NCBI GenBank assembly: GCA_903834825.1
Contig: CAILKQ010000056.1
Coordinates: forward strand, 1-45,432
Length of the DNA stretch: 45,432 bases
Source of the DNA: an uncultured bacterium
GTDB lineage: Bacteria > Bacteroidota > Bacteroidia > Chitinophagales > Chitinophagaceae
Reading direction: 5' to 3'
This document shows, piece after piece, positions 36,580 to 45,361 of this stretch. Each line of letters starts with the position of its first letter. Position 1 is the first letter of the stretch. Under the pieces are notes generated by a model, which did no database searches, was not told the origin of the DNA, and worked only from the letters and a program-made list of their open reading frames with translations. A program made the position numbers and the translations under genes.

Positions 36580-36620
36580 CCAATTGAAGTAATTCTTTTG
36601 TCAATTGGCTTTAATTTTTT
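36580..36620 (+). terminator. probable terminator after smpB
   Basis: CCAATTGA (36580-36587) and TCAATTGG (36601-36608), an 8-bp stem with a 13-base loop, then CTTTAATTTTTT. The stem is AT-rich, so it is weaker than the others. Its T-run overlaps the -33 element of the trp leader promoter. Confidence 0.55.
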
Positions 36621-36649
36621 GGAATTATTGGAGTTTTTCATCAAATTTG
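36619..36649 (+). promoter_or_regulatory. promoter of the trp-his leader
   Basis: TTG (36619-36621), 20-base spacer, CAAATTTG (36642-36649), one mismatch from TTG-N19-TAnnTTTG. The box ends 5 bases before the leader peptide ATG at 36655, so the leader peptide would be read from a leaderless transcript. Confidence 0.5.
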
Positions 36650-36654
36650 TTGAA

Positions 36655-36708
36655 ATGAAAAGAAATTATACAAACAACGGTTGGCATTTTATCTCTGATA
36701 AGGGGTAA
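36655..36708 (+). CDS. trpL: leader peptide of the trp-his operon (17 codons)
   Basis: Open frame ATG to TAA encoding MKRNYTNNGWHFISDKG. The Trp codon (36682-36684) and His codon (36685-36687) are adjacent and followed by Phe; Tyr is at position 5. It is placed between a promoter-like element and the alternative hairpins that end in a terminator 14 bases before trpE, which is the standard position of an attenuation leader. The stop codon falls next to the strand (36697-36705) that decides between antiterminator and terminator. Only one Trp codon is present, against two or more in many trp leaders, so the sensing role is inferred. Nothing but position, codon content and RNA structure supports expression. 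Confidence 0.65.
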   Translation: MKRNYTNNGWHFISDKG

Positions 36709-36766
36709 ATCCTATGTTGTATAGTAACATATGTAAAGCCCCGATTATTCGGGGCTTTTATTTTTA
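36689..36766 (+). promoter_or_regulatory. transcription attenuator of the trp-his operon
   Basis: Three exclusive pairings are visible. 1:2 is TTATC (36689-36693) with GATAA (36697-36701). 2:3 is the antiterminator ATAAGGGG (36698-36705) with CCCC-GA-TTAT (36739-36748, GA bulged), enclosing the small hairpin TATGTT/AACATA (36713-36731). 3:4 is the terminator AAAGCCCCGA (36735-36744), loop TTAT, TCGGGGCTTT (36749-36758), then TTTATTTTT. A ribosome stalled at the Trp-His codons would cover strand 1 and leave strand 2 free to form the antiterminator. A ribosome reaching the stop codon would cover strand 2 and allow termination. The terminator itself is unambiguous; the switch is inference from base pairing. 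Confidence 0.7.
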
Positions 36767-36779
36767 AATCAATCAATGC

Positions 36780-38243
36780 ATGGAAAAAATGAACAAGGTT
36801 AAGTTGAGCACCACATTCCGAAAGATGGCGGCAGACTTGTATACCCCGGTGGGTATTTATCTCCGCCTTCGGGATAAGTTCCGGGATACCATTTTGTTGG
36901 AAAGCACAGACCACCATACGGCCGAGAATAGTTTTTCCTTCATTGCCATCAATGCCATCGGAGGCATTGAGATAACAGCTGCGCATGAGGTAGAGTTCAA
37001 GTATCCTGGAGAGATGCCAACCAAGAGAACGCTGGAAAATACGGCAGTGCCAGCACTGGTTTGGGACTACATGCAGGGTTATGCAGTTGAGCCTGGCGCA
37101 AAAGAAACCAAGTTTTCCCAAGGACTCTATGGATATACCGCTTATGATGCCATCCCATTTTTTGAGACAATCCAATTCCGAGACAAGCCTTATGCAGAAA
37201 GAAAAGGAGGAAAATTGGAGGATAACCTGCAGGGTGATGCCATTCCCTTGATGCGATACCGGTTGTACCAATATGTTATTGCCATCGATCATTTCCGGGA
37301 TGAACTCTATTTGTTGGAGAACCATATACCAGGCATTGATGGCGACAAACAATTGATTGAAAACATCATTTGTGGAAGAGACCTTCCGCAGTTTCCCTTT
37401 GAGTCTACGGGAGAAGAAAGATCCAACCTTACCGATGAGCAGTACATTGAAATGGTGAAAAAAGGGATTGCCCATTGCTACCGGGGTGATGTATTTCAGA
37501 TTGTTTTGAGCAGGAGGTTTGAGCAGTCGTTCAAAGGGGATGAATTGAATGTTTACAGGGCGTTGAGGATGATCAACCCTTCTCCCTATCTTTTCTTTTT
37601 TGATTATGGTGAATACAAACTGATGGGGTCATCCCCGGAAAGCCAGCTCATCATTGCCAATGGACAGGCCATTGTTCACCCCATTGCCGGAACATTCAAG
37701 AGGAGTGGAGATGATGCGCTAGACAGAAAAGAAGCGGAACGCCTCTTGCAGGATCCCAAAGAAAATGCGGAGCATGTGATGCTGGTGGATCTTGCCCGAA
37801 ATGACCTTAGCCGTGTTTGTGATCATGTTAAAGTGGCCCATTACAGGCAGGTAAAATATTATTCCCATGTGATCCATCTGGTCAGTGAAGTAGTGGCCAC
37901 TGTCAGAAAAAATGCCAATCCATTCCTGTTGATGGCCAAAACATTCCCAGCTGGAACCCTGAGTGGTGCACCAAAATTCAGGGCCATGGAACTGATTGAT
38001 ACCTATGAACAAACCAAGCGTTCATTTTATGGAGGAGCAATAGGATTTACTGGATTTGATGGATCTTGTAATCAAGCGATTTTGATCAGGAGTTTCCTGA
38101 GCCGCAACAATACGCTCTATTACCAGGCTGGTGCAGGCATCGTGGCTTCCAGCGTCCCTGAAAGTGAGTTGCAGGAAGTCAACAACAAGCTGGGCGCATT
38201 GAAGAAAGCAGTGCTGTTTGCCAATGAGATTAACAAAAAATAA
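36780..38243 (+). CDS. trpE: anthranilate synthase component I
   Basis: Converts chorismate and ammonia to anthranilate, with glutamine-derived ammonia from TrpG. 487 residues. The N-terminal regulatory part contains LLESTDHHTAENSFSFIAI (the LLES element of the tryptophan feedback site). The chorismate-binding domain has YRGDVFQIVLSRRFEQ, LRMINPSPYLFFFDYGEYKLMGSSPESQLI, VHPIAGTFKRSGDDALDRKEAERLLQDPKENAEHVMLVDLARNDLSRV, FPAGTLSGAPKFRAMELID and YYQAGAGIVASSVPESELQEVNNK. It is the first structural gene after the attenuator; the ATG at 36780 is 14 bases after the terminator T-run. Confidence 0.96.
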   Translation: MEKMNKVKLSTTFRKMAADLYTPVGIYLRLRDKFRDTILLESTDHHTAENSFSFIAINAIGGIEITAAHEVEFKYPGEMPTKRTLENTAVPALVWDYMQGYAVEPGAKETKFSQGLYGYTAYDAIPFFETIQFRDKPYAERKGGKLEDNLQGDAIPLMRYRLYQYVIAIDHFRDELYLLENHIPGIDGDKQLIENIICGRDLPQFPFESTGEERSNLTDEQYIEMVKKGIAHCYRGDVFQIVLSRRFEQSFKGDELNVYRALRMINPSPYLFFFDYGEYKLMGSSPESQLIIANGQAIVHPIAGTFKRSGDDALDRKEAERLLQDPKENAEHVMLVDLARNDLSRVCDHVKVAHYRQVKYYSHVIHLVSEVVATVRKNANPFLLMAKTFPAGTLSGAPKFRAMELIDTYEQTKRSFYGGAIGFTGFDGSCNQAILIRSFLSRNNTLYYQAGAGIVASSVPESELQEVNNKLGALKKAVLFANEINKK

Positions 38244-38257
38244 AATTACCATACCCC

Positions 38258-38872
38258 TTGAAACGATTACTGGTCCTCGATAATTATGATTCTTTCACCT
38301 ATAACCTGGTGCATCTTTCCAAGGAGATCTTGGGCGAAGAAGTTGATGTGTACCGCAACGATGAGATATCGATTGCAGCAGCTGCACAATACGAGAGGAT
38401 CTTGCTCTCCCCAGGGCCGGGCATTCCAGAGGAAGCAGGGATTTTGCTCCCACTGATCAAAGCCCTTGCCCCGACACACGCATTGTTTGGGGTTTGCCTC
38501 GGTCAACAGGCCATTGGCCAGGCTTTTGGCGGAGAACTGGTCAACCTCTCAAAGGTTTACCATGGTGTGGCAACACCCATTCACCTTGCTGAAGGCTTGC
38601 TGCCATCGATCCATAAAAATGACTGGTTCAACGGGATGGATTCAACCCTTGAGGTGGGCAGGTACCACAGTTGGGTAGTAAAACAGGAAGGATTCCCAGA
38701 TGATTTGGAGATTACATCAACAGACGAAACCGGCATGATCATGTCGCTGCGCCACAAGCACTTCAATGTGCAGGGCGTACAGTTTCATCCGGAAAGTGTG
38801 CTGACACCACAAGGCAGAACAATGCTCGAAAACTGGTTGCTGAGCAGACCGAAAAATATAAAAATTCATTGA
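38258..38872 (+). CDS. trpG: anthranilate synthase component II (glutamine amidotransferase)
   Basis: Provides ammonia to TrpE. 204 residues, class I amidotransferase: LLVLDNYDSFTYNLVH, LLSPGPGIPEEAG, nucleophile elbow FGVCLGQQAIGQAFGG (Cys80), RYHSWVV, and the catalytic His-Glu in VQFHPESVLTPQG. The VLDNYDSFTYNL opening is specific to TrpG/PabA. The only suitable start is TTG at 38258; no in-frame ATG lies between it and the trpE stop. A weak start could set the TrpG level relative to TrpE. The gene may also serve folate synthesis as PabA if no separate copy exists. It overlaps the trpD start by one base. Confidence 0.94.
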   Translation: MKRLLVLDNYDSFTYNLVHLSKEILGEEVDVYRNDEISIAAAAQYERILLSPGPGIPEEAGILLPLIKALAPTHALFGVCLGQQAIGQAFGGELVNLSKVYHGVATPIHLAEGLLPSIHKNDWFNGMDSTLEVGRYHSWVVKQEGFPDDLEITSTDETGMIMSLRHKHFNVQGVQFHPESVLTPQGRTMLENWLLSRPKNIKIH

Positions 38873-39867
38873 TGAAACAGACATTGAATTATCTTTTTGA
38901 ACACAAGACATTGTCAAGTGAACATGCGCGGCAGATCCTGTTGGATCTTGGCAAAGGCGCTTTCAACGAGCATGAATTGAGTGCATTCATGACGGTCTAT
39001 CTCATGAGAACGATCACCATTGAAGAACTCATGGGTTTTCGTGATGCACTGTTGGAGCTTTGTGTGCCCATAGATTTTGAGGAAAGAAAAGTAATGGATA
39101 TTGTAGGAACAGGAGGTGATGGCAAAAATACCTTCAACATATCAACCCTTTCCTGCTTTATTGTTGCAGGTGCTGGTCAACCTGTTGCCAAGCATGGCAG
39201 CTATGGCGCCAGTTCCATCAGCGGGGCCTCCAACCTCATGGAGTCCCTGGGCTATAAGTTCAAAAATGACCAGGCATCGTTGCGCATGGAGATTGATGAA
39301 ACCAACATGTGTTTCCTGCATGCGCCTGTTTTTCATCCTGCACTCAAGGCCGTAGGACCTATCCGCAAAAACCTCAAGGTGCGCACATTTTTCAACATGC
39401 TAGGCCCCATGGTTAATCCATCCAACCCAAGCTATCAAATGGTGGGGGTGTACAACCTTGAAATAGCCAGGATCTACAATTACTTGCTCCAGGGCCAGGA
39501 CAGACAGTTTTCCATTGTTCACTCGCTGGATGGCTATGATGAAATATCCCTTACTTCAGATGTAAAACTGATCACTGCAGAAGGGGAAAAAATCTTTACG
39601 CCCACACAACTGGGGGGCATGCAGATTGATGGTAAGGAAATTTGGGGCGGTGAAACAGTAGCAGAAGCAGCATCAATATTCATGCACATCCTCAAAGGAG
39701 AGGGAACCCCCGCGCAACATGCCGTCGTTACCGCCAATGCGGCCATGGCCCTTTACATGACCCCAGCTTATAATGACTATGCTACTGCTTTTGAAGCAGC
39801 CAAAGAAAGCCTGGAGAGTGGGAAAGCCCTGGGCGTGCTTACTTCACTGATGGCGATACAATCCTGA
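38872..39867 (+). CDS. trpD: anthranilate phosphoribosyltransferase
   Basis: Transfers phosphoribose from PRPP to anthranilate. 331 residues, separate from TrpG (the two are fused in E. coli). The PRPP-binding glycine loop DIVGTGGDGKNTFNIST is followed by VAKHGSYGASSISGASNLMESLGY, CFLHAPVFHPALKAVGPIRKNLKVRTFFNMLGPMVNPSNP and a Bacteroidetes-like acidic LDGYDEISLTSDVKL. Start at the ATG 38872 inside TGATG with the trpG stop, so translation is coupled. TrpD uses PRPP, the same precursor consumed by the histidine pathway whose genes end this operon. Confidence 0.96.
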   Translation: MKQTLNYLFEHKTLSSEHARQILLDLGKGAFNEHELSAFMTVYLMRTITIEELMGFRDALLELCVPIDFEERKVMDIVGTGGDGKNTFNISTLSCFIVAGAGQPVAKHGSYGASSISGASNLMESLGYKFKNDQASLRMEIDETNMCFLHAPVFHPALKAVGPIRKNLKVRTFFNMLGPMVNPSNPSYQMVGVYNLEIARIYNYLLQGQDRQFSIVHSLDGYDEISLTSDVKLITAEGEKIFTPTQLGGMQIDGKEIWGGETVAEAASIFMHILKGEGTPAQHAVVTANAAMALYMTPAYNDYATAFEAAKESLESGKALGVLTSLMAIQS

Positions 39868-39871
39868 ACAC

Positions 39872-40663
39872 ATGAACATATTGGATACCATAGTAGTACT
39901 GAAAAAAGCAGAAGTTGATGAACGTAAAAAGCGTAAACCACTTGATGTGATCAAGCTTGATGCGTTCTATATCCGTAATACGATTTCCCTTGTGGAAGGC
40001 TTGTCAAGGCCCAATGCTTCAGGTATCATTGCGGAGTTCAAAAGAAAATCGCCTTCAAAGGGGGTAATCAATGACAGGGTTGACCTGCTGGAAGTGACCA
40101 AAGGCTATCAGGTTGCTGGTGCATCAGCCGTTTCCATATTGACCGATGAATATTTTTTTGGTGGAGATGATCAGGATGTTGTGAGGGCAAGGGAAGTATT
40201 GGATATCCCCATTCTGCGCAAGGAATTCATCATTGATGAATACCAGGTTCACGAAGCAAAGGCATTGGGCGCTGATTTAATTTTGTTGATTGCAGCTTGT
40301 CTTACCAAGGAAGAGGTGGTTCGTTTTTCAACTGTGGCCAGGTCTTTGGGCTTGGAGGTTTTGCTGGAATTGCATGATGAAGATGAACTGGGTCATGTAT
40401 GTGAAACCATTGATCTGGTGGGAATCAACAACCGAAGCCTCAAAACCTTCGATGTCAACATTGCACGCAGCCTCAGGATGGCCGGACAGCTTCCGAAGGA
40501 CAAGTTGAAAGTGGCAGAAAGTGGCATTGATGATCCGGCCCAGGTTAAATTGTTCAGGGAGAATGGATACAGCGCATTTTTGATTGGGGAGAATTTTATG
40601 AAAACAAATGATCCCGGAATAGCGTTACATGAGTTTAGGAACCAGATTGAATTATTAGGATGA
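39872..40663 (+). CDS. trpC: indole-3-glycerol phosphate synthase
   Basis: Closes the indole ring from carboxyphenylaminodeoxyribulose phosphate. 263 residues, TIM barrel, monofunctional (not fused to TrpF as in E. coli). Motifs: IIAEFKRKSPSKGVI with the catalytic Lys and Glu region, VSILTDEYFFGGDDQDVVRAREVLDIPILRKEFIIDEYQVHEAKALGADLILLIAA, LLELHDEDEL, VGINNRSLKTFDVN, and KVAESGIDDPAQVKLFRENGYSAFLIGENFMK. It starts 4 bases after trpD and its stop overlaps the trpF start in ATGA. Confidence 0.97.
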   Translation: MNILDTIVVLKKAEVDERKKRKPLDVIKLDAFYIRNTISLVEGLSRPNASGIIAEFKRKSPSKGVINDRVDLLEVTKGYQVAGASAVSILTDEYFFGGDDQDVVRAREVLDIPILRKEFIIDEYQVHEAKALGADLILLIAACLTKEEVVRFSTVARSLGLEVLLELHDEDELGHVCETIDLVGINNRSLKTFDVNIARSLRMAGQLPKDKLKVAESGIDDPAQVKLFRENGYSAFLIGENFMKTNDPGIALHEFRNQIELLG

Positions 40664-41298
40664 GACTGAAGGTATGTGGCATGACAGGGATTGCCCAGCT
40701 GAAAGAGCTGGAGACGATTGGCGTGGATTTCGCCGGCCTGATTTTCTATCCGCAATCGCCCCGCTATGCCATGAAATTTGGTTTAACACCCGGAATGCTC
40801 AAGCAAGAAAAGCTCCGCATCAACAGGGTAGGCGTTTTTGTCAATGAAGAGCAGGATACTGTTTTGAGGATTGTAGACAAATGGAAGCTGGACATGGTGC
40901 AATTGCATGGAGATGAATCACCAAGCTATTGTGAATATATTTCCCATCATGTCAAAACCATCAAAGCCTTCAGGATTGGGAACAATGAAAACGTGCCTTA
41001 CAAGACCTTTCCTTTCAATGAAGTGGTGGATTTTTATCTTTTTGACACGATGGGAAAGCAATATGGTGGTACGGGTGAGCAATTTAAATGGGACTTGTTG
41101 TGTCGTGCACCAGTGCCAAAACCTTATTTTTTGAGCGGTGGTATTGGTCCTGAAGATGTTGATCAGCTCTCCCAGTTCTGTGAAAACGAAAAAAAACTTT
41201 TTGCCATTGATGTCAACAGCAAGTTTGAACAATCACCAGGCGTCAAGGATATGAACAAAGTCAAGGATTTTTTTAATGCAATCAAAATGATCAACTGA
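40660..41298 (+). CDS. trpF: phosphoribosylanthranilate isomerase
   Basis: Amadori rearrangement of phosphoribosylanthranilate. 212 residues, a small TIM barrel. The N-terminal catalytic Cys is in MRLKVCGMTGIAQL. FAGLIFYPQSPRYA, NRVGVFVNE, DMVQLHGDESPSYC, LFDTMGKQYGGTGEQFKWDLL (with the catalytic Asp) and FLSGGIGPEDVDQL then FAIDVNSKFEQSPGVKDMNKVKDFF follow. A separate hisA is present further down this operon, so no dual-function PriA is needed. Start overlaps trpC by four bases; trpB follows after one base. Confidence 0.95.
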   Translation: MRLKVCGMTGIAQLKELETIGVDFAGLIFYPQSPRYAMKFGLTPGMLKQEKLRINRVGVFVNEEQDTVLRIVDKWKLDMVQLHGDESPSYCEYISHHVKTIKAFRIGNNENVPYKTFPFNEVVDFYLFDTMGKQYGGTGEQFKWDLLCRAPVPKPYFLSGGIGPEDVDQLSQFCENEKKLFAIDVNSKFEQSPGVKDMNKVKDFFNAIKMIN

Positions 41299-41299
41299 T

Positions 41300-42493
41300 A
41301 TGACAACGAGTTATTCAAAACCAAGTGAGCAAGGCTATTATGGTGATTTTGGTGGAGCCTATATTCCAGAAATGTTGTACCAAAATGTGGAACATCTCCG
41401 GCAACAGTATCTTTCCATTTCAAATGATCCGCTCTTTCAGCAAGAGTTTCATGCCCTTTTGAAGGATTATGTAGGAAGGCCCACGCCTCTTTTTTTGGCT
41501 GAACGCTTGAGCGAAAGGTTTGGCTCAACCATTTACCTCAAGCGGGAAGACCTCTGCCATACCGGAGCCCACAAAATCAACAATACCATTGGTCAAATCC
41601 TGCTGGCACAACGCCTGGGTAAAAAACGGATCATTGCAGAAACCGGTGCCGGACAACATGGCGTTGCAACAGCAACGGTTTGTGCGTTGAAAGGAATTGA
41701 GTGTATTGTATACATGGGTGAAAAAGACATCAAACGACAAGCGCCCAATGTAGCCAGGATGAAAATGCTGGGTGCCAAAGTGGTTCCTGCGATCAGCGGT
41801 AGCAAGACCCTCAAGGATGCTACCAATGAAGCCATCAGGGATTGGATCAACAATCCCATTGAAACGCACTATATCATCGGTTCTGTGGTTGGCCCACATC
41901 CATACCCAGACATGGTATCAAGGTTTCAGTCGGTCATCAGCAAGGAGATGCGGTCTCAATTGCTTGAAAAAATAGGAACGGAACTGCCCACCCGTGTGAT
42001 TGCCTGTGTTGGTGGCGGAAGCAATGCAGCAGGCGCTTTCTATCATTTTCTGGACGAACCCAGTGTTGAGATTGTTGCTGTAGAAGCAGCAGGTCATGGG
42101 ATCAATACCGGCATGAGCGCTGCTACCACCCAACTGGGCGTTCCCGGTATCCTTCATGGCAGCAAGAGCATCGTGATGCAAACGCCAGACGGACAAGTAG
42201 TAGAGCCACATAGCATTTCAGCAGGCCTGGATTATCCTGGCATTGGCCCCATGCATGCGCATCTTTATACCAGTTGCCGTGCCAAGTTCATGAGTGCCAC
42301 AGATGAAGAAGCACTGAAATGGGCATTCGAAATTTCCAGGTTAGAGGGCATTATTCCTGCACTGGAAACTGCCCATGCTTTTGCTGTACTGGATCAGTTG
42401 GGGATGAAGCCGGACGATGTATCTGTAATCTGCCTGAGTGGCAGGGGAGACAAAGACTTGGGTACATATATGGATGCAATGAATGAACAATAA
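41300..42493 (+). CDS. trpB: tryptophan synthase beta chain
   Basis: Condenses indole with serine, PLP-dependent. 397 residues, the TrpB1 type that pairs with TrpA. GYYGDFGGAYIPEMLYQNVEHL, the PLP lysine in CHTGAHKINNTIGQILLAQRLGKKRIIAETGAGQHGVATA (Lys of HKINN), the phosphate loop ACVGGGSNAAGAFYHF, and ISAGLDYPGIGPMHAHL then CLSGRGDKDLGTY are all intact. It lies one base after trpF and 12 bases before trpA. Confidence 0.97.
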   Translation: MTTSYSKPSEQGYYGDFGGAYIPEMLYQNVEHLRQQYLSISNDPLFQQEFHALLKDYVGRPTPLFLAERLSERFGSTIYLKREDLCHTGAHKINNTIGQILLAQRLGKKRIIAETGAGQHGVATATVCALKGIECIVYMGEKDIKRQAPNVARMKMLGAKVVPAISGSKTLKDATNEAIRDWINNPIETHYIIGSVVGPHPYPDMVSRFQSVISKEMRSQLLEKIGTELPTRVIACVGGGSNAAGAFYHFLDEPSVEIVAVEAAGHGINTGMSAATTQLGVPGILHGSKSIVMQTPDGQVVEPHSISAGLDYPGIGPMHAHLYTSCRAKFMSATDEEALKWAFEISRLEGIIPALETAHAFAVLDQLGMKPDDVSVICLSGRGDKDLGTYMDAMNEQ

Positions 42494-42505: not shown

Positions 42506-43276
42506 ATGAGCAGAATTAATGATTTATTTGAGATAAAAAAAGAGAATGTACTCAATGTATATTTCACTGCAGGGTATCCGACATTGCACAGTACTTTGGA
42601 CATCATGCTGGCCTTGCAAGATGCCGGTGTTGATTTGATCGAACTGGGCATGCCCTACAGCGATCCCCTTGCTGACGGTCCTGTAATTCAGGAAAGCAGT
42701 TTGATTGCGTTGGACAACGGCATGACCATTGCCAAACTTTTTGAACAACTGAAAGGCTTTCGAGAAAATATCCATGTGCCCGTTGTATTGATGGGGTACA
42801 TGAATCCGGTGTTGCAATATGGATTTGATAAATTCTGTGCAGATGCGTCTGCTGTGGGTATTGATGGACTCATCCTTCCAGATCTTCCACCTTTGGAATT
42901 TGAACAATCGCATGGTGCCATCGTTAAAAAACATGCACTTGATTTTATTTTCCTGGTCACTCCTGAAACCAGTGAGGAAAGGGTGCGTAAACTGGATGGA
43001 CTCAGTTCCGGATTCTTGTATGCCGTTTCATCATCCTCTACGACAGGAAAGGAAAAGAATTTTGATGATGTAATTGCTTACCTCAAAAGGCTTCGATCCT
43101 ATCAGTTGAACAATCCGGTGCTGGTAGGATTTGGCATCAAAGACAAAGAAACTTTTGGAGCCGTGACTCCTTTTGCCAATGGTGCCATCATCGGTTCTGC
43201 CTTCATCAAAGCATTATCATCAGGAGAAAATCCGGATGCAGTAACAAAGGAATTCATCCGTGCGGTGCTCAACTAA
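42506..43276 (+). CDS. trpA: tryptophan synthase alpha chain
   Basis: Releases indole from indole-3-glycerol phosphate. 256 residues. NVYFTAGYPTLHSTLDIMLALQDAGVDLIELGMPYSDPLADGPVIQESS contains the catalytic Glu of ELGxPxSDP and the Asp of DPLADGP. VVLMGYMNPVLQYG, DGLILPDLPPLE, FLVTPETSEERVRKLD, GFLYAVSSSSTTG and LVGFGIKDKETFGAVTPFANGAIIGSAFIKAL follow. It ends the trp block; hisH starts four bases later on the same strand with no promoter or terminator between them. Confidence 0.96.
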   Translation: MSRINDLFEIKKENVLNVYFTAGYPTLHSTLDIMLALQDAGVDLIELGMPYSDPLADGPVIQESSLIALDNGMTIAKLFEQLKGFRENIHVPVVLMGYMNPVLQYGFDKFCADASAVGIDGLILPDLPPLEFEQSHGAIVKKHALDFIFLVTPETSEERVRKLDGLSSGFLYAVSSSSTTGKEKNFDDVIAYLKRLRSYQLNNPVLVGFGIKDKETFGAVTPFANGAIIGSAFIKALSSGENPDAVTKEFIRAVLN

Positions 43277-43280
43277 ACCC

Positions 43281-43874
43281 ATGAAACTTATTATTATCAA
43301 ATACAATGCCGGCAATGTTCGGTCGGTACAATTTGCATTGGAGCGCCTTGGCATAGAGCCAGTGCTTTCTGATGATCCGGAAGTCATTCTCGCCGCCGAC
43401 AAAATTATCTTTCCCGGAGTAGGAGAGGCCAGTTCTGCCATGGACTATTTGAAACAACGAGGGCTGGACAAAGTGATCCTTGATGCAAAGCAACCCTTTC
43501 TGGGCATCTGCCTGGGGATGCAATTGATGTGTTCCCACTCTGAAGAAAATGATACCCCTTGTCTGGGTATTTTTCAGGAAAAAGTGAAGCACTTTGTTGC
43601 GGATCAACCCCAGACCAAAATCCCTCAGATTGGTTGGAATACCATCCATGACCTGAAAACACCTTTGTTCAAGAATGTTGAAGAAAACAGCCATTGTTAT
43701 TTTGTCCACAGTTATTATGCAAGCCTGGGCAATCATACCATTGGCCAAACAGATTATTGTGGCGGGTTCAGTGCTGCCCTACAAACCAGGAATTTTTATG
43801 GGGTCCAGTTTCATCCTGAAAAAAGTGCGGAAGTCGGATCAACCATCATCAAGAATTTTTTAAACATCACCTAA
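43281..43874 (+). CDS. hisH: imidazole glycerol phosphate synthase, glutaminase subunit
   Basis: Supplies ammonia to HisF in histidine synthesis. 197 residues from the ATG at 43281. KLIIIKYNAGNVRSVQFALERLG, IIFPGVGEASSAMDYLKQRGLD, the nucleophile elbow FLGICLGMQLMCSHSEE (Cys77), IPQIGWNTI, CYFVHSYYA, and the catalytic VQFHPEKSAEVGSTIIKNF. An upstream GTG at 43260 overlaps trpA and adds a non-conserved MRCSTKP, so it is not used. It follows trpA by four bases, joining the histidine genes to the trp operon. Confidence 0.96.
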   Translation: MKLIIIKYNAGNVRSVQFALERLGIEPVLSDDPEVILAADKIIFPGVGEASSAMDYLKQRGLDKVILDAKQPFLGICLGMQLMCSHSEENDTPCLGIFQEKVKHFVADQPQTKIPQIGWNTIHDLKTPLFKNVEENSHCYFVHSYYASLGNHTIGQTDYCGGFSAALQTRNFYGVQFHPEKSAEVGSTIIKNFLNIT

Positions 43875-43877
43875 AAA

Positions 43878-44615
43878 ATGCAAATCATTCCTGCCATAGA
43901 TATCATTGATGGAAAATGTGTTCGGCTTACCGAAGGCGACTACCTGCAAAAAAAAGCGTATTCCTCATCTCCACTGGAGATGGCAAAAATATACGAAGCC
44001 AATGGCATAACCCGGCTTCACCTGGTTGATTTGGATGGCGCAAAGGCTGGCAACGTGACCAACTGGAAAGTTGCGGAGGAAATCTCAGCACATACCAATC
44101 TTATCGTTGATTTTGGAGGCGGTGTAAAGACTGTCGAAGAAGTCGAGCGAATCATTGCCCTGGGGATTTCATACGTAACGGTGGGCAGTATCGCTGTAAA
44201 AAATCCTGAAGTATTCAAAGAATGGATTGCTGTTTTTGGCCCAGAAAGGTTCATGTTGGGCGCTGATGTGAAAGATGATATGATCATGGTCAGTGGCTGG
44301 TTTGAAGCTTCCGGTCTGCAACTGATTCCCTTCATTGAATCCTACATGGCACTGGGCATCAGGAATATTTTTTGTACAGACATCAGCAAGGACGGACGTT
44401 TGGAAGGTCCATCCACCGCATTGTATGCCAAAATCAAACAACAGTTTCCAGACCTTTTTTTGATTGCCAGTGGTGGTGTTGCGGTCATGGATGACCTGTA
44501 TGATCTTGCGACTGCAGGCTGCGATGGTGCCATCATCGGCAAGGCCATTTATGAAAACAGGATTTCCATTGAATCCCTCAAAGCCTTCAACGAAAAAAAC
44601 GCAAACAAATGCTGA
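43878..44615 (+). CDS. hisA: ProFAR isomerase (phosphoribosylformimino-5-aminoimidazole carboxamide ribotide isomerase)
   Basis: Fourth step of histidine synthesis, an Amadori rearrangement analogous to TrpF. 245 residues, TIM barrel with internal half-barrel symmetry. [21 protein letters not shown] carries the first catalytic Asp (Asp8). [64 protein letters not shown] with the second catalytic Asp, and [34 protein letters not shown] follow. Three bases after hisH; its end overlaps hisF by seven bases. Confidence 0.97.
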
Positions 44616-45361
44616 CCAAGCGCATCATTCCCTGCTTAGACATCAAAGATGGCCGCACTGTTAAGGGAACCAATTTCATTGATTTGCGTGATGCCGGAGA
44701 TCCTGTTGAATTGGCAGCGCTCTATGCAGCACAAGGGGCAGACGAATTGGTGTTTCTTGACATCACCGCCACCAACGAAAAAAGAAAGACATTGGCTGCT
44801 CTTGTAGACAGGATTGCACACCGGATAAATATCCCATTTACGGTTGGTGGAGGCATCTCTTCTGTTGAAGTTGTGCGCATATTGCTCGACAGTGGGGCCG
44901 ACAAGATCTCCGTCAATACTTCTGCTTTCAAAGATCCTGAGCTGATCAACCGGCTTGCGGCTGAATTTGGGAGCCAATGCGTGGTACTGGCCATTGATGC
45001 CAAGAAAAGGGAAGATGGCGAGTGGTATGTGCACCTGAACGGAGGGCGGGTTCCCACCGACAAAAGATGTCTGGATTGGGCCATCGAAGGTGTGCAGCGT
45101 GGGGCTGGAGAGATCCTGCTAACATCCATGGACCATGATGGTACCAAAGCTGGATTTGCCAAGGATATTACTGGCGCCGTTTCCAGGGCGGTGAATGTAC
45201 CCGTCATCGCTTCTGGCGGGGGTGGTCTTCCGGAGCATTTTGCTGAGATCCTGGATGGTCATGCAGATGCAGCATTGGCAGCCAGTATTTTTCATTTTCG
45301 AGAAGTATCCATCCCCGACCTCAAATTATACCTCAGGCAAAAGGGCATTCCGGTAAGATAA
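44609..45361 (+). CDS. hisF: imidazole glycerol phosphate synthase, cyclase subunit
   Basis: Uses ammonia from HisH to make imidazole glycerol phosphate and AICAR. 250 residues. [54 protein letters not shown] has catalytic Asp11 and Lys19. [41 protein letters not shown] with the second catalytic Asp, [19 protein letters not shown], and [19 protein letters not shown] complete the barrel. Its start overlaps the hisA stop by seven bases, so the subunits are translationally coupled. A weak promoter-like TAATTTTA at 45375-45382 follows, before hisI. Confidence 0.97.

Follow-up and report, generated by a model that had tools for sequence, protein, structure and literature searches.

A putative transcription attenuator with adjacent tryptophan and histidine control codons ahead of a joint trp-his operon in Chitinophagaceae

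The DNA analysed here (hereafter the window) is a whole contig of 45,432 nucleotides from an uncultured member of the Chitinophagaceae, whose last part carries, on the forward strand, the genes trpE (36780–38243), trpG (38258–38872), trpD (38869–39867), trpC (39872–40663), trpF (40660–41298), trpB (41300–42493) and trpA (42506–43276), followed by hisH (43281–43874), hisA (43878–44615) and hisF (44609–45361), a his part that is also linked in relatives. The cluster trpEGDCFBA-hisHAF runs on one strand throughout, neighbouring genes overlapping or lying no more than 14 bases apart, and accD and smpB lie upstream of the leader described below. The NCBIfam curated cut-off of the expected family was passed by trpG, trpD, trpC, trpB, trpA, hisH, hisA and hisF; for trpE (386.6 vs 517.7 bits) and trpF (164.9 vs 215) the expected family was the best match, at a score below the cut-off. 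The gene calls and the NCBIfam matches thus bear out the trpEGDCFBA and hisHAF content that had been claimed for this operon from the sequence alone, while hisI, which had been added to it, is out of view because the contig, and with it the window, ends 71 bases past hisF.

Ahead of trpE, we identified on the + strand a 17-codon frame with its stop (36655–36708, MKRNYTNNGWHFISDKG; ATG AAA AGA AAT TAT ACA AAC AAC GGT TGG CAT TTT ATC TCT GAT AAG GGG TAA), in which the Trp control codon TGG (codon 10, 36682–36684) is directly followed by the His codon CAT (codon 11, 36685–36687), our proposed second control codon. In the minimum-free-energy fold, strand 1 (36688–36696) pairs with strand 2 (36701–36709), forming a hairpin (36688–36709) that hides strand 2. 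In the modelled antiterminator (36698–36748), the strand 2 segment ATAAGGGG (36698–36705) would pair instead with strand 3, CCCC-GA-TTAT (36739–36748). Both the fold and a terminator scan place an intrinsic terminator, AAAGCCCCGA-TTAT-TCGGGGCTTT, at 36735–36766, with a 10-bp stem (36735–36758) and a T-rich tail. The fold of 36655–36772 has an energy of -33.1 kcal/mol, compared with -18.95 +/- 2.9 in shuffled sequences (z -4.9). A leader ORF with control codons hence precedes a biosynthetic operon, and antiterminator and terminator are mutually exclusive, with the position of the ribosome deciding between them when computed with an assumed footprint. None of the Rfam leader families matched the window at the gathering score; the best sub-threshold match was Phe_leader (27.3 bits vs 55), and the sub-threshold matches look like chance.

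A promoter of the Bacteroidetes type can be predicted from the sequence at 36618–36649 (+ strand), with a -33 element, TTTG (36618–36621), and a -7 element, CAAATTTG (36642–36649), the first base of which departs from the consensus TAnnTTTG. In 130 leaders of the family, the start of TTTG peaks at -11 (47 leaders) and -39 (39 leaders) relative to the leader ATG, and TTTG occurs close before the ATG (-20 to -4) in 102 of the 130, compared with a shuffle mean of 14.9. These peaks fit the -7 and -33 elements described for Bacteroidetes promoters, for which the available text gives the -7 consensus TAnnTTTG (PMC7366714). Transcription from the 36618–36649 promoter would start at the leader ATG or a few bases earlier, and hence not downstream of 36655, a start that the sequence-only reading had named as contrary evidence. 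Since the promoter elements lie so near the leader ATG in the window and in the 130 family leaders, little or no untranslated sequence probably precedes the leader frame in the transcript. A sigma-70 scan of the leader region was uninformative (18 sites vs 14.9 expected).

The arrangement is conserved in the genus, where 41 genomes were searched and 34 had a trpE match: in all 34, a short ORF with Trp directly followed by His, together with a terminator hairpin, precedes trpE. This conservation leads us to reject a leader arisen by chance. The leader frame, the exclusive hairpins and the terminator ahead of trpE, as proposed in the sequence-only reading, are confirmed by sequence, fold and genus conservation, and the observation named beforehand as speaking against it, loss of the Trp and His codons despite a kept terminator, was made in 0 of these 34 genomes, neither codon being lost in any of them. 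Leaders of the window's clade have one Trp and one His codon, three genus genomes (G121, G126 and G128) have W-H-H, and the remaining genus leaders read WWH or WWWH. In the family sample, trpE was matched in 86 of 117 genomes; the usual leader there is ...WWWHTNS..RGL, with a G+C-rich terminator, and hisHAF follows trpA in many genomes, the trp operon standing alone in others. One family genome, G070 (L117, L318), has a split trp cluster, trpE to trpF being about 45 kb apart from trpBA-hisHAF; its trpE leader keeps WWWH, and no WW leader was found before trpB. A Chitinophagaceae-like trp operon and leader are also carried by L188 and L212, contigs assigned to Flavobacterium sp. and Williamsia sp.; these metagenome labels are probably wrong.

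We then compared the codon that follows the Trp run with the linkage of his genes to the trp operon. The 229 loci examined comprised 110 linked, 54 unlinked and 65 that could not be assigned, mostly at contig ends, four of which were later scored as unlinked. Rows in which no leader was called were dropped (e.g. G075, G194 and G212), leaving 164, and removal of TrpE sequences more than 97% alike reduced these to 152; with 80 named contigs included, 131 family loci with both traits known remained after this removal of near-identical TrpE. For L061 and L165, the leader peptide was assigned by hand. The Trp run is immediately followed by His in 95/99 linked and 15/32 unlinked family loci (Fisher 2e-9), and His lies within three residues after it in 99/99 and 16/32 (4e-12), a count defined only after the four exceptions had been seen. 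These linked exceptions read WWWQH (L135), WWGH (L230) and HWWWQ (L150 and L153, with only hisH linked); Gln after the Trp run and His before it, with hisH in the trp operon, is the pattern recorded for G018 and G116. His at most two residues before the run is found in 22/99 linked and 1/32 unlinked loci (p 0.014). The codons after the Trp run are CAT (79), CAC (16), CAA (3) and GGG (1) in linked loci, and CAT (14), CAC (1), CAG (6), CAA (5), CTT (5) and CCT (1) in unlinked ones. His is kept in his-linked operons and often lost in unlinked ones, which suggests that the codon is maintained while his genes are in the trp cluster.

The association of the His codon with his linkage also bears on whether the leader serves hisHAF at all. 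If the attenuator acted on the trp genes alone and hisHAF had their own promoter and signal, the His codon would not be expected to track the linkage of his genes, as it does. Internal promoters may exist within the cluster; nevertheless, only 4 bases separate trpA from hisH and 3 bases hisH from hisA, hisA and hisF overlap, and the + strand terminator-like matches past the attenuator (37370, 40338, 40718 and 43348) all fall within genes. We consider such separate units very unlikely and infer that the transcript is continuous from the leader to hisF.

Since Fisher tests ignore relatedness, we fitted a Markov model of the two traits to the TrpE tree. The fit improves when the rates at which His is gained and lost are allowed to vary with linkage, both for the family clade (127 rows, p 2.4e-5) and for the 152 rows (p 9e-6), with the His codon lost at a rate of 2.5 in unlinked compared with 0.12 to 0.13 in linked loci (about 20 times faster when unlinked); p values from these likelihood tests are chi-square approximations. 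With 14 loci from other families added, chosen partly for linkage, dependence reached p 5e-8 (166 rows; FastTree tree), G524, in which hisH lies 8 kb from trpA with genes between, being scored as unlinked. The association could also arise in a plain Trp attenuator from shared ancestry, combined with faster drift of the leader in lineages that rearrange their operons. Linked lineages do cluster on the tree, and the independent-pair test gave 2 to 3 pairs in the expected direction and 0 to 0.3 in the opposite one per pairing, too few for significance. Six other leader traits served as controls in this test. For two of them, N at +3 (p 0.01) and N at -2/-3 (p 0.04), linkage has a weak effect, to be set beside 2.4e-5 for His at +1; for the remaining four (T at +2, S/L at +4, the residue at -1 and a Trp run of at least three) no effect reached significance. 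Against ancestry and drift stand, besides these four controls, the likelihood tests, which take branch lengths into account and favour dependence in the family clade and with the chosen other-family loci, and the presence of His in six linked operons from three other families. We thus regard ancestry and drift as a quite unlikely explanation of the linkage-dependent His codon.

The effect of a stalled ribosome was computed by masked folding, in which an assumed ribosome footprint, -15 to +12 bases around the start of the A-site codon, was kept unpaired and the transcript was folded to just past strand 3, for 126 of the 131 family loci (96 linked, 30 unlinked). An earlier masked fold, which scored strand 3 as paired whichever leader base upstream was its partner and yielded 0.60 at the stop codon of the window, was replaced by this strand-specific measure. 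In the window, the modelled antiterminator pairing is 0.03 with no ribosome, 0.68 with a stall at the Trp codon and 0.64 with one at the His codon, in line with the earlier suggestion that a stall at either codon would act alike; it is 0.62, 0.49 and 0.02 for stalls one, two and three codons past His and 0.003 at the stop codon. The mean over the 96 linked leaders is 0.30 with no ribosome, 0.86 for a stall at the last Trp codon, 0.83 for one at the codon after it, then 0.72, 0.37 and 0.09 at one, two and three codons beyond that, and 0.01 at the stop codon; relative to no ribosome, a next-codon stall raises pairing by more than 0.1 in 72 leaders, changes it by less than 0.1 in 20 and lowers it in 4. 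The His position would therefore lie in the stretch in which a stalled ribosome turns the operon on. As the 30 unlinked leaders behave the same, the geometry appears to be shared by linked and unlinked leaders, the difference coming from the codon. Exchange of strands between leaders changed the mean energy from -11.8 (native) to -10.1 kcal/mol (swapped) for strands 2:3 and from -11.8 to -9.6 kcal/mol for strands 1:2, the segments taken overlapping by a few bases; this separation is modest because GGGGC/GCCCC is common to most leaders. In the Chitinophaga lineage, some terminator arms set automatically for the masked folding and the strand swaps look too short or misplaced.

The strand 1:2 hairpin offers another reason for which a plain Trp attenuator might keep CAT, namely for RNA pairing, His itself going unsensed: GCAT..ACAAAC and a downstream TTGT..ATGC are able to pair in many relatives, and His is present in unlinked leaders too. 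Third-base changes do carry a pairing cost, in the 78 CAT leaders of 1.21 (CAC), 1.10 (CAG) and 2.18 (CAA) kcal/mol, and in the 14 CAC leaders of 1.74 (CAT), 2.13 (CAG) and 2.90 (CAA) kcal/mol. The rarity of CAA is thus partly what pairing predicts, but the absence of CAG is not explained by it, since CAC and CAG cost alike in CAT leaders and yet linked loci have 16 CAC and 0 CAG, and unlinked loci 1 CAC and 6 CAG. Moreover, two leaders with very similar stems have CAT in a linked locus (L088) and CAA in an unlinked one (L092), and pairing leaves the dependence on linkage unexplained. These comparisons weaken the view that CAT is kept for RNA pairing alone, and we judge an attenuator that senses Trp only and keeps CAT for pairing to be unlikely.

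Outside the family, His follows the Trp run in 4 of 20 unlinked leaders of the order sample. The only linked operon of that sample (G210, from another family, with hisH and hisA behind trpA) has the leader MNTVQIYWRWWSA, which is without His; the comparisons, by which the second codon appears to be under selection for its amino acid, thus include this counterexample. A class-wide search covered 295 genomes, its HisH-based findings holding among the matches listed, and 20 class-level regions were picked by hand rather than at random (7 for hisH near trpA, and 13 others). At least six class-level operons from three families have hisH within about 3 kb of trpA (G433, G372, G403, G509, G357 and G388), and His comes right after the Trp run in 6/6 of these linked operons among the matches listed; counted with G210, the exception, 6 of 7 linked operons outside the family have His among the matches listed. 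The 13 other regions and G524 gave ten Trp-run leaders without linked his genes, four of which (G278, G474, G265 and G342) have His after the Trp run. As half of the unlinked family leaders and some unlinked leaders of other families have His, a Trp run followed by His is not confined to operons with his genes.

One genus (G357, G388 and G524) includes both states. In G357 and G388, two genes and then hisHAF follow trpA on the same strand, and the leaders of these intact clusters read TGGTGGTGGCAT; in G524, four opposite-strand genes lie between the trp part and the his part, and the leader reads TGGTGGTGGTCT. The change from His to Ser coincides with the insertion in this one case, in which the next three leader residues differ too and the terminator is nearly unchanged. 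The genes between trpA and hisH in G357 (L324) encode a DAHP synthase and a phenylalanine 4-monooxygenase, so that aromatic and His genes share a cluster there.

The hisHAF genes are only part of the His pathway, and hisG lies on another contig of the window's genome (L279, contig C31), preceded by an ORF that ends in GHIHHHHNLP, with no Trp there, and is followed by a terminator-like hairpin. At 29 of 30 hisG loci (L250–L278 and L279), a short ORF with at least three consecutive His codons was found in a 1-kb stretch on either strand; the His run is broken in G047, and G041, one of the 29, also ends in Trp. We propose this His-run ORF, from its sequence, as a candidate His attenuator of the hisG loci of the family. 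With hisG having a His-run leader of its own, the two halves of the His pathway appear to be under separate leaders, a His leader and a leader for Trp or His. Where the trp operon stands alone, hisG and hisF occur together away from it, within 7 kb in 24 genomes (mostly 5.3 to 6.2 kb). In 28 of the 83 genomes with both genes placed (e.g. G085, G014 and G106), hisG and trpE share a strand, with hisG upstream by no more than 10 kb; the trp operon and its own attenuator thus appear to be inserted in a his operon there.

Leaders that read more than one amino acid are known, among them the ilv leaders. The thr operon attenuator of E. coli (thrL), reportedly described by Lynn et al. in 1987, is said to read Thr and Ile through one leader. 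Thr and Ile belong to one branched pathway, whereas Trp and His are made by separate ones; the window's leader would resemble thrL in joining two amino acids and differ from it in joining separate pathways. We know of no reading of Trp by hisL. In having a His codon ahead of his genes the window's leader resembles hisL, and the ORF before hisG of the same genome (HIHHHH) is of that kind, hisL being built on a run of His codons according to the available part of the source (PMC9413887). With trpL of E. coli it shares the short leader ORF with Trp codons, the exclusive strands and the terminator before trpE. In trpL, moreover, a ribosome halted at Arg, the codon right behind the two Trp codons, likewise keeps the 1:2 hairpin from forming, so that a stall that is effective one position past Trp has been described before (PMC1183508). 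In contrast to trpL, the next codon in the window is His, which depends on his genes in the operon, the operon includes hisHAF, and the leader begins almost at the expected transcript start. Trp genes inserted in a his operon have been noted from gene order in Thermoflavifilum thermophilum and Filimonas lacunae, an arrangement of the same kind as in the window, and the available portion of that paper describes no leader or attenuator for it (PMC8305728). Attenuation upstream of amino-acid operons is mentioned in general terms for a flavobacterium in the part of PMC9723704 at hand. Among the titles and abstracts found, mainly of openly available papers, none described a leader reading Trp and His.

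Taken together, the locus is best read as a transcription attenuator of the ribosome-mediated kind, whose single leader peptide would be read for both Trp and His, a reading based on sequence comparison and modelling to which we assign a probability of roughly 0.8. If charged tRNA-Trp or tRNA-His runs short, the ribosome would stall at the Trp codon or at the adjacent His codon; either stall would cover strand 1 and let strand 2 pair with strand 3, so that no terminator would form and RNA polymerase would proceed into trpEGDCFBA-hisHAF. With both Trp and His plentiful, the ribosome would reach the stop codon and cover strand 2, and the terminator would form; the attenuator would thus have the logic of an OR gate. 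The His codon may be maintained because hisHAF sits in the trp operon here, whereas other genomes of the family carry these genes in an intact his operon headed by a His-run leader. The dual Trp/His sensor of the sequence-only reading accordingly finds support, short of proof, in comparative and computed evidence, that is, in the linkage-dependent His codon and the modelled stalls. Since two-amino-acid leaders are already known, what would be new is the joining of separate pathways and a second codon in step with operon content.

More broadly, this is probably a widespread Bacteroidota attenuator that acts as a two-pathway OR gate and whose codons follow the content of the operon, with WWWH in most of the family, WH or WHH in the window's clade, and His often lost when the his genes leave. 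If so, gene order would reshape regulation through changes of single codons, a natural case, in several lineages, of a regulator whose logic follows the gene content of its operon codon by codon, and what keeps regulation matched once genes of another pathway join an operon becomes testable. Trp and His are costly products with a common precursor, PRPP. In these bacteria, limitation for Trp would act directly on three His enzymes and vice versa, and the supply of the two amino acids would be coupled.
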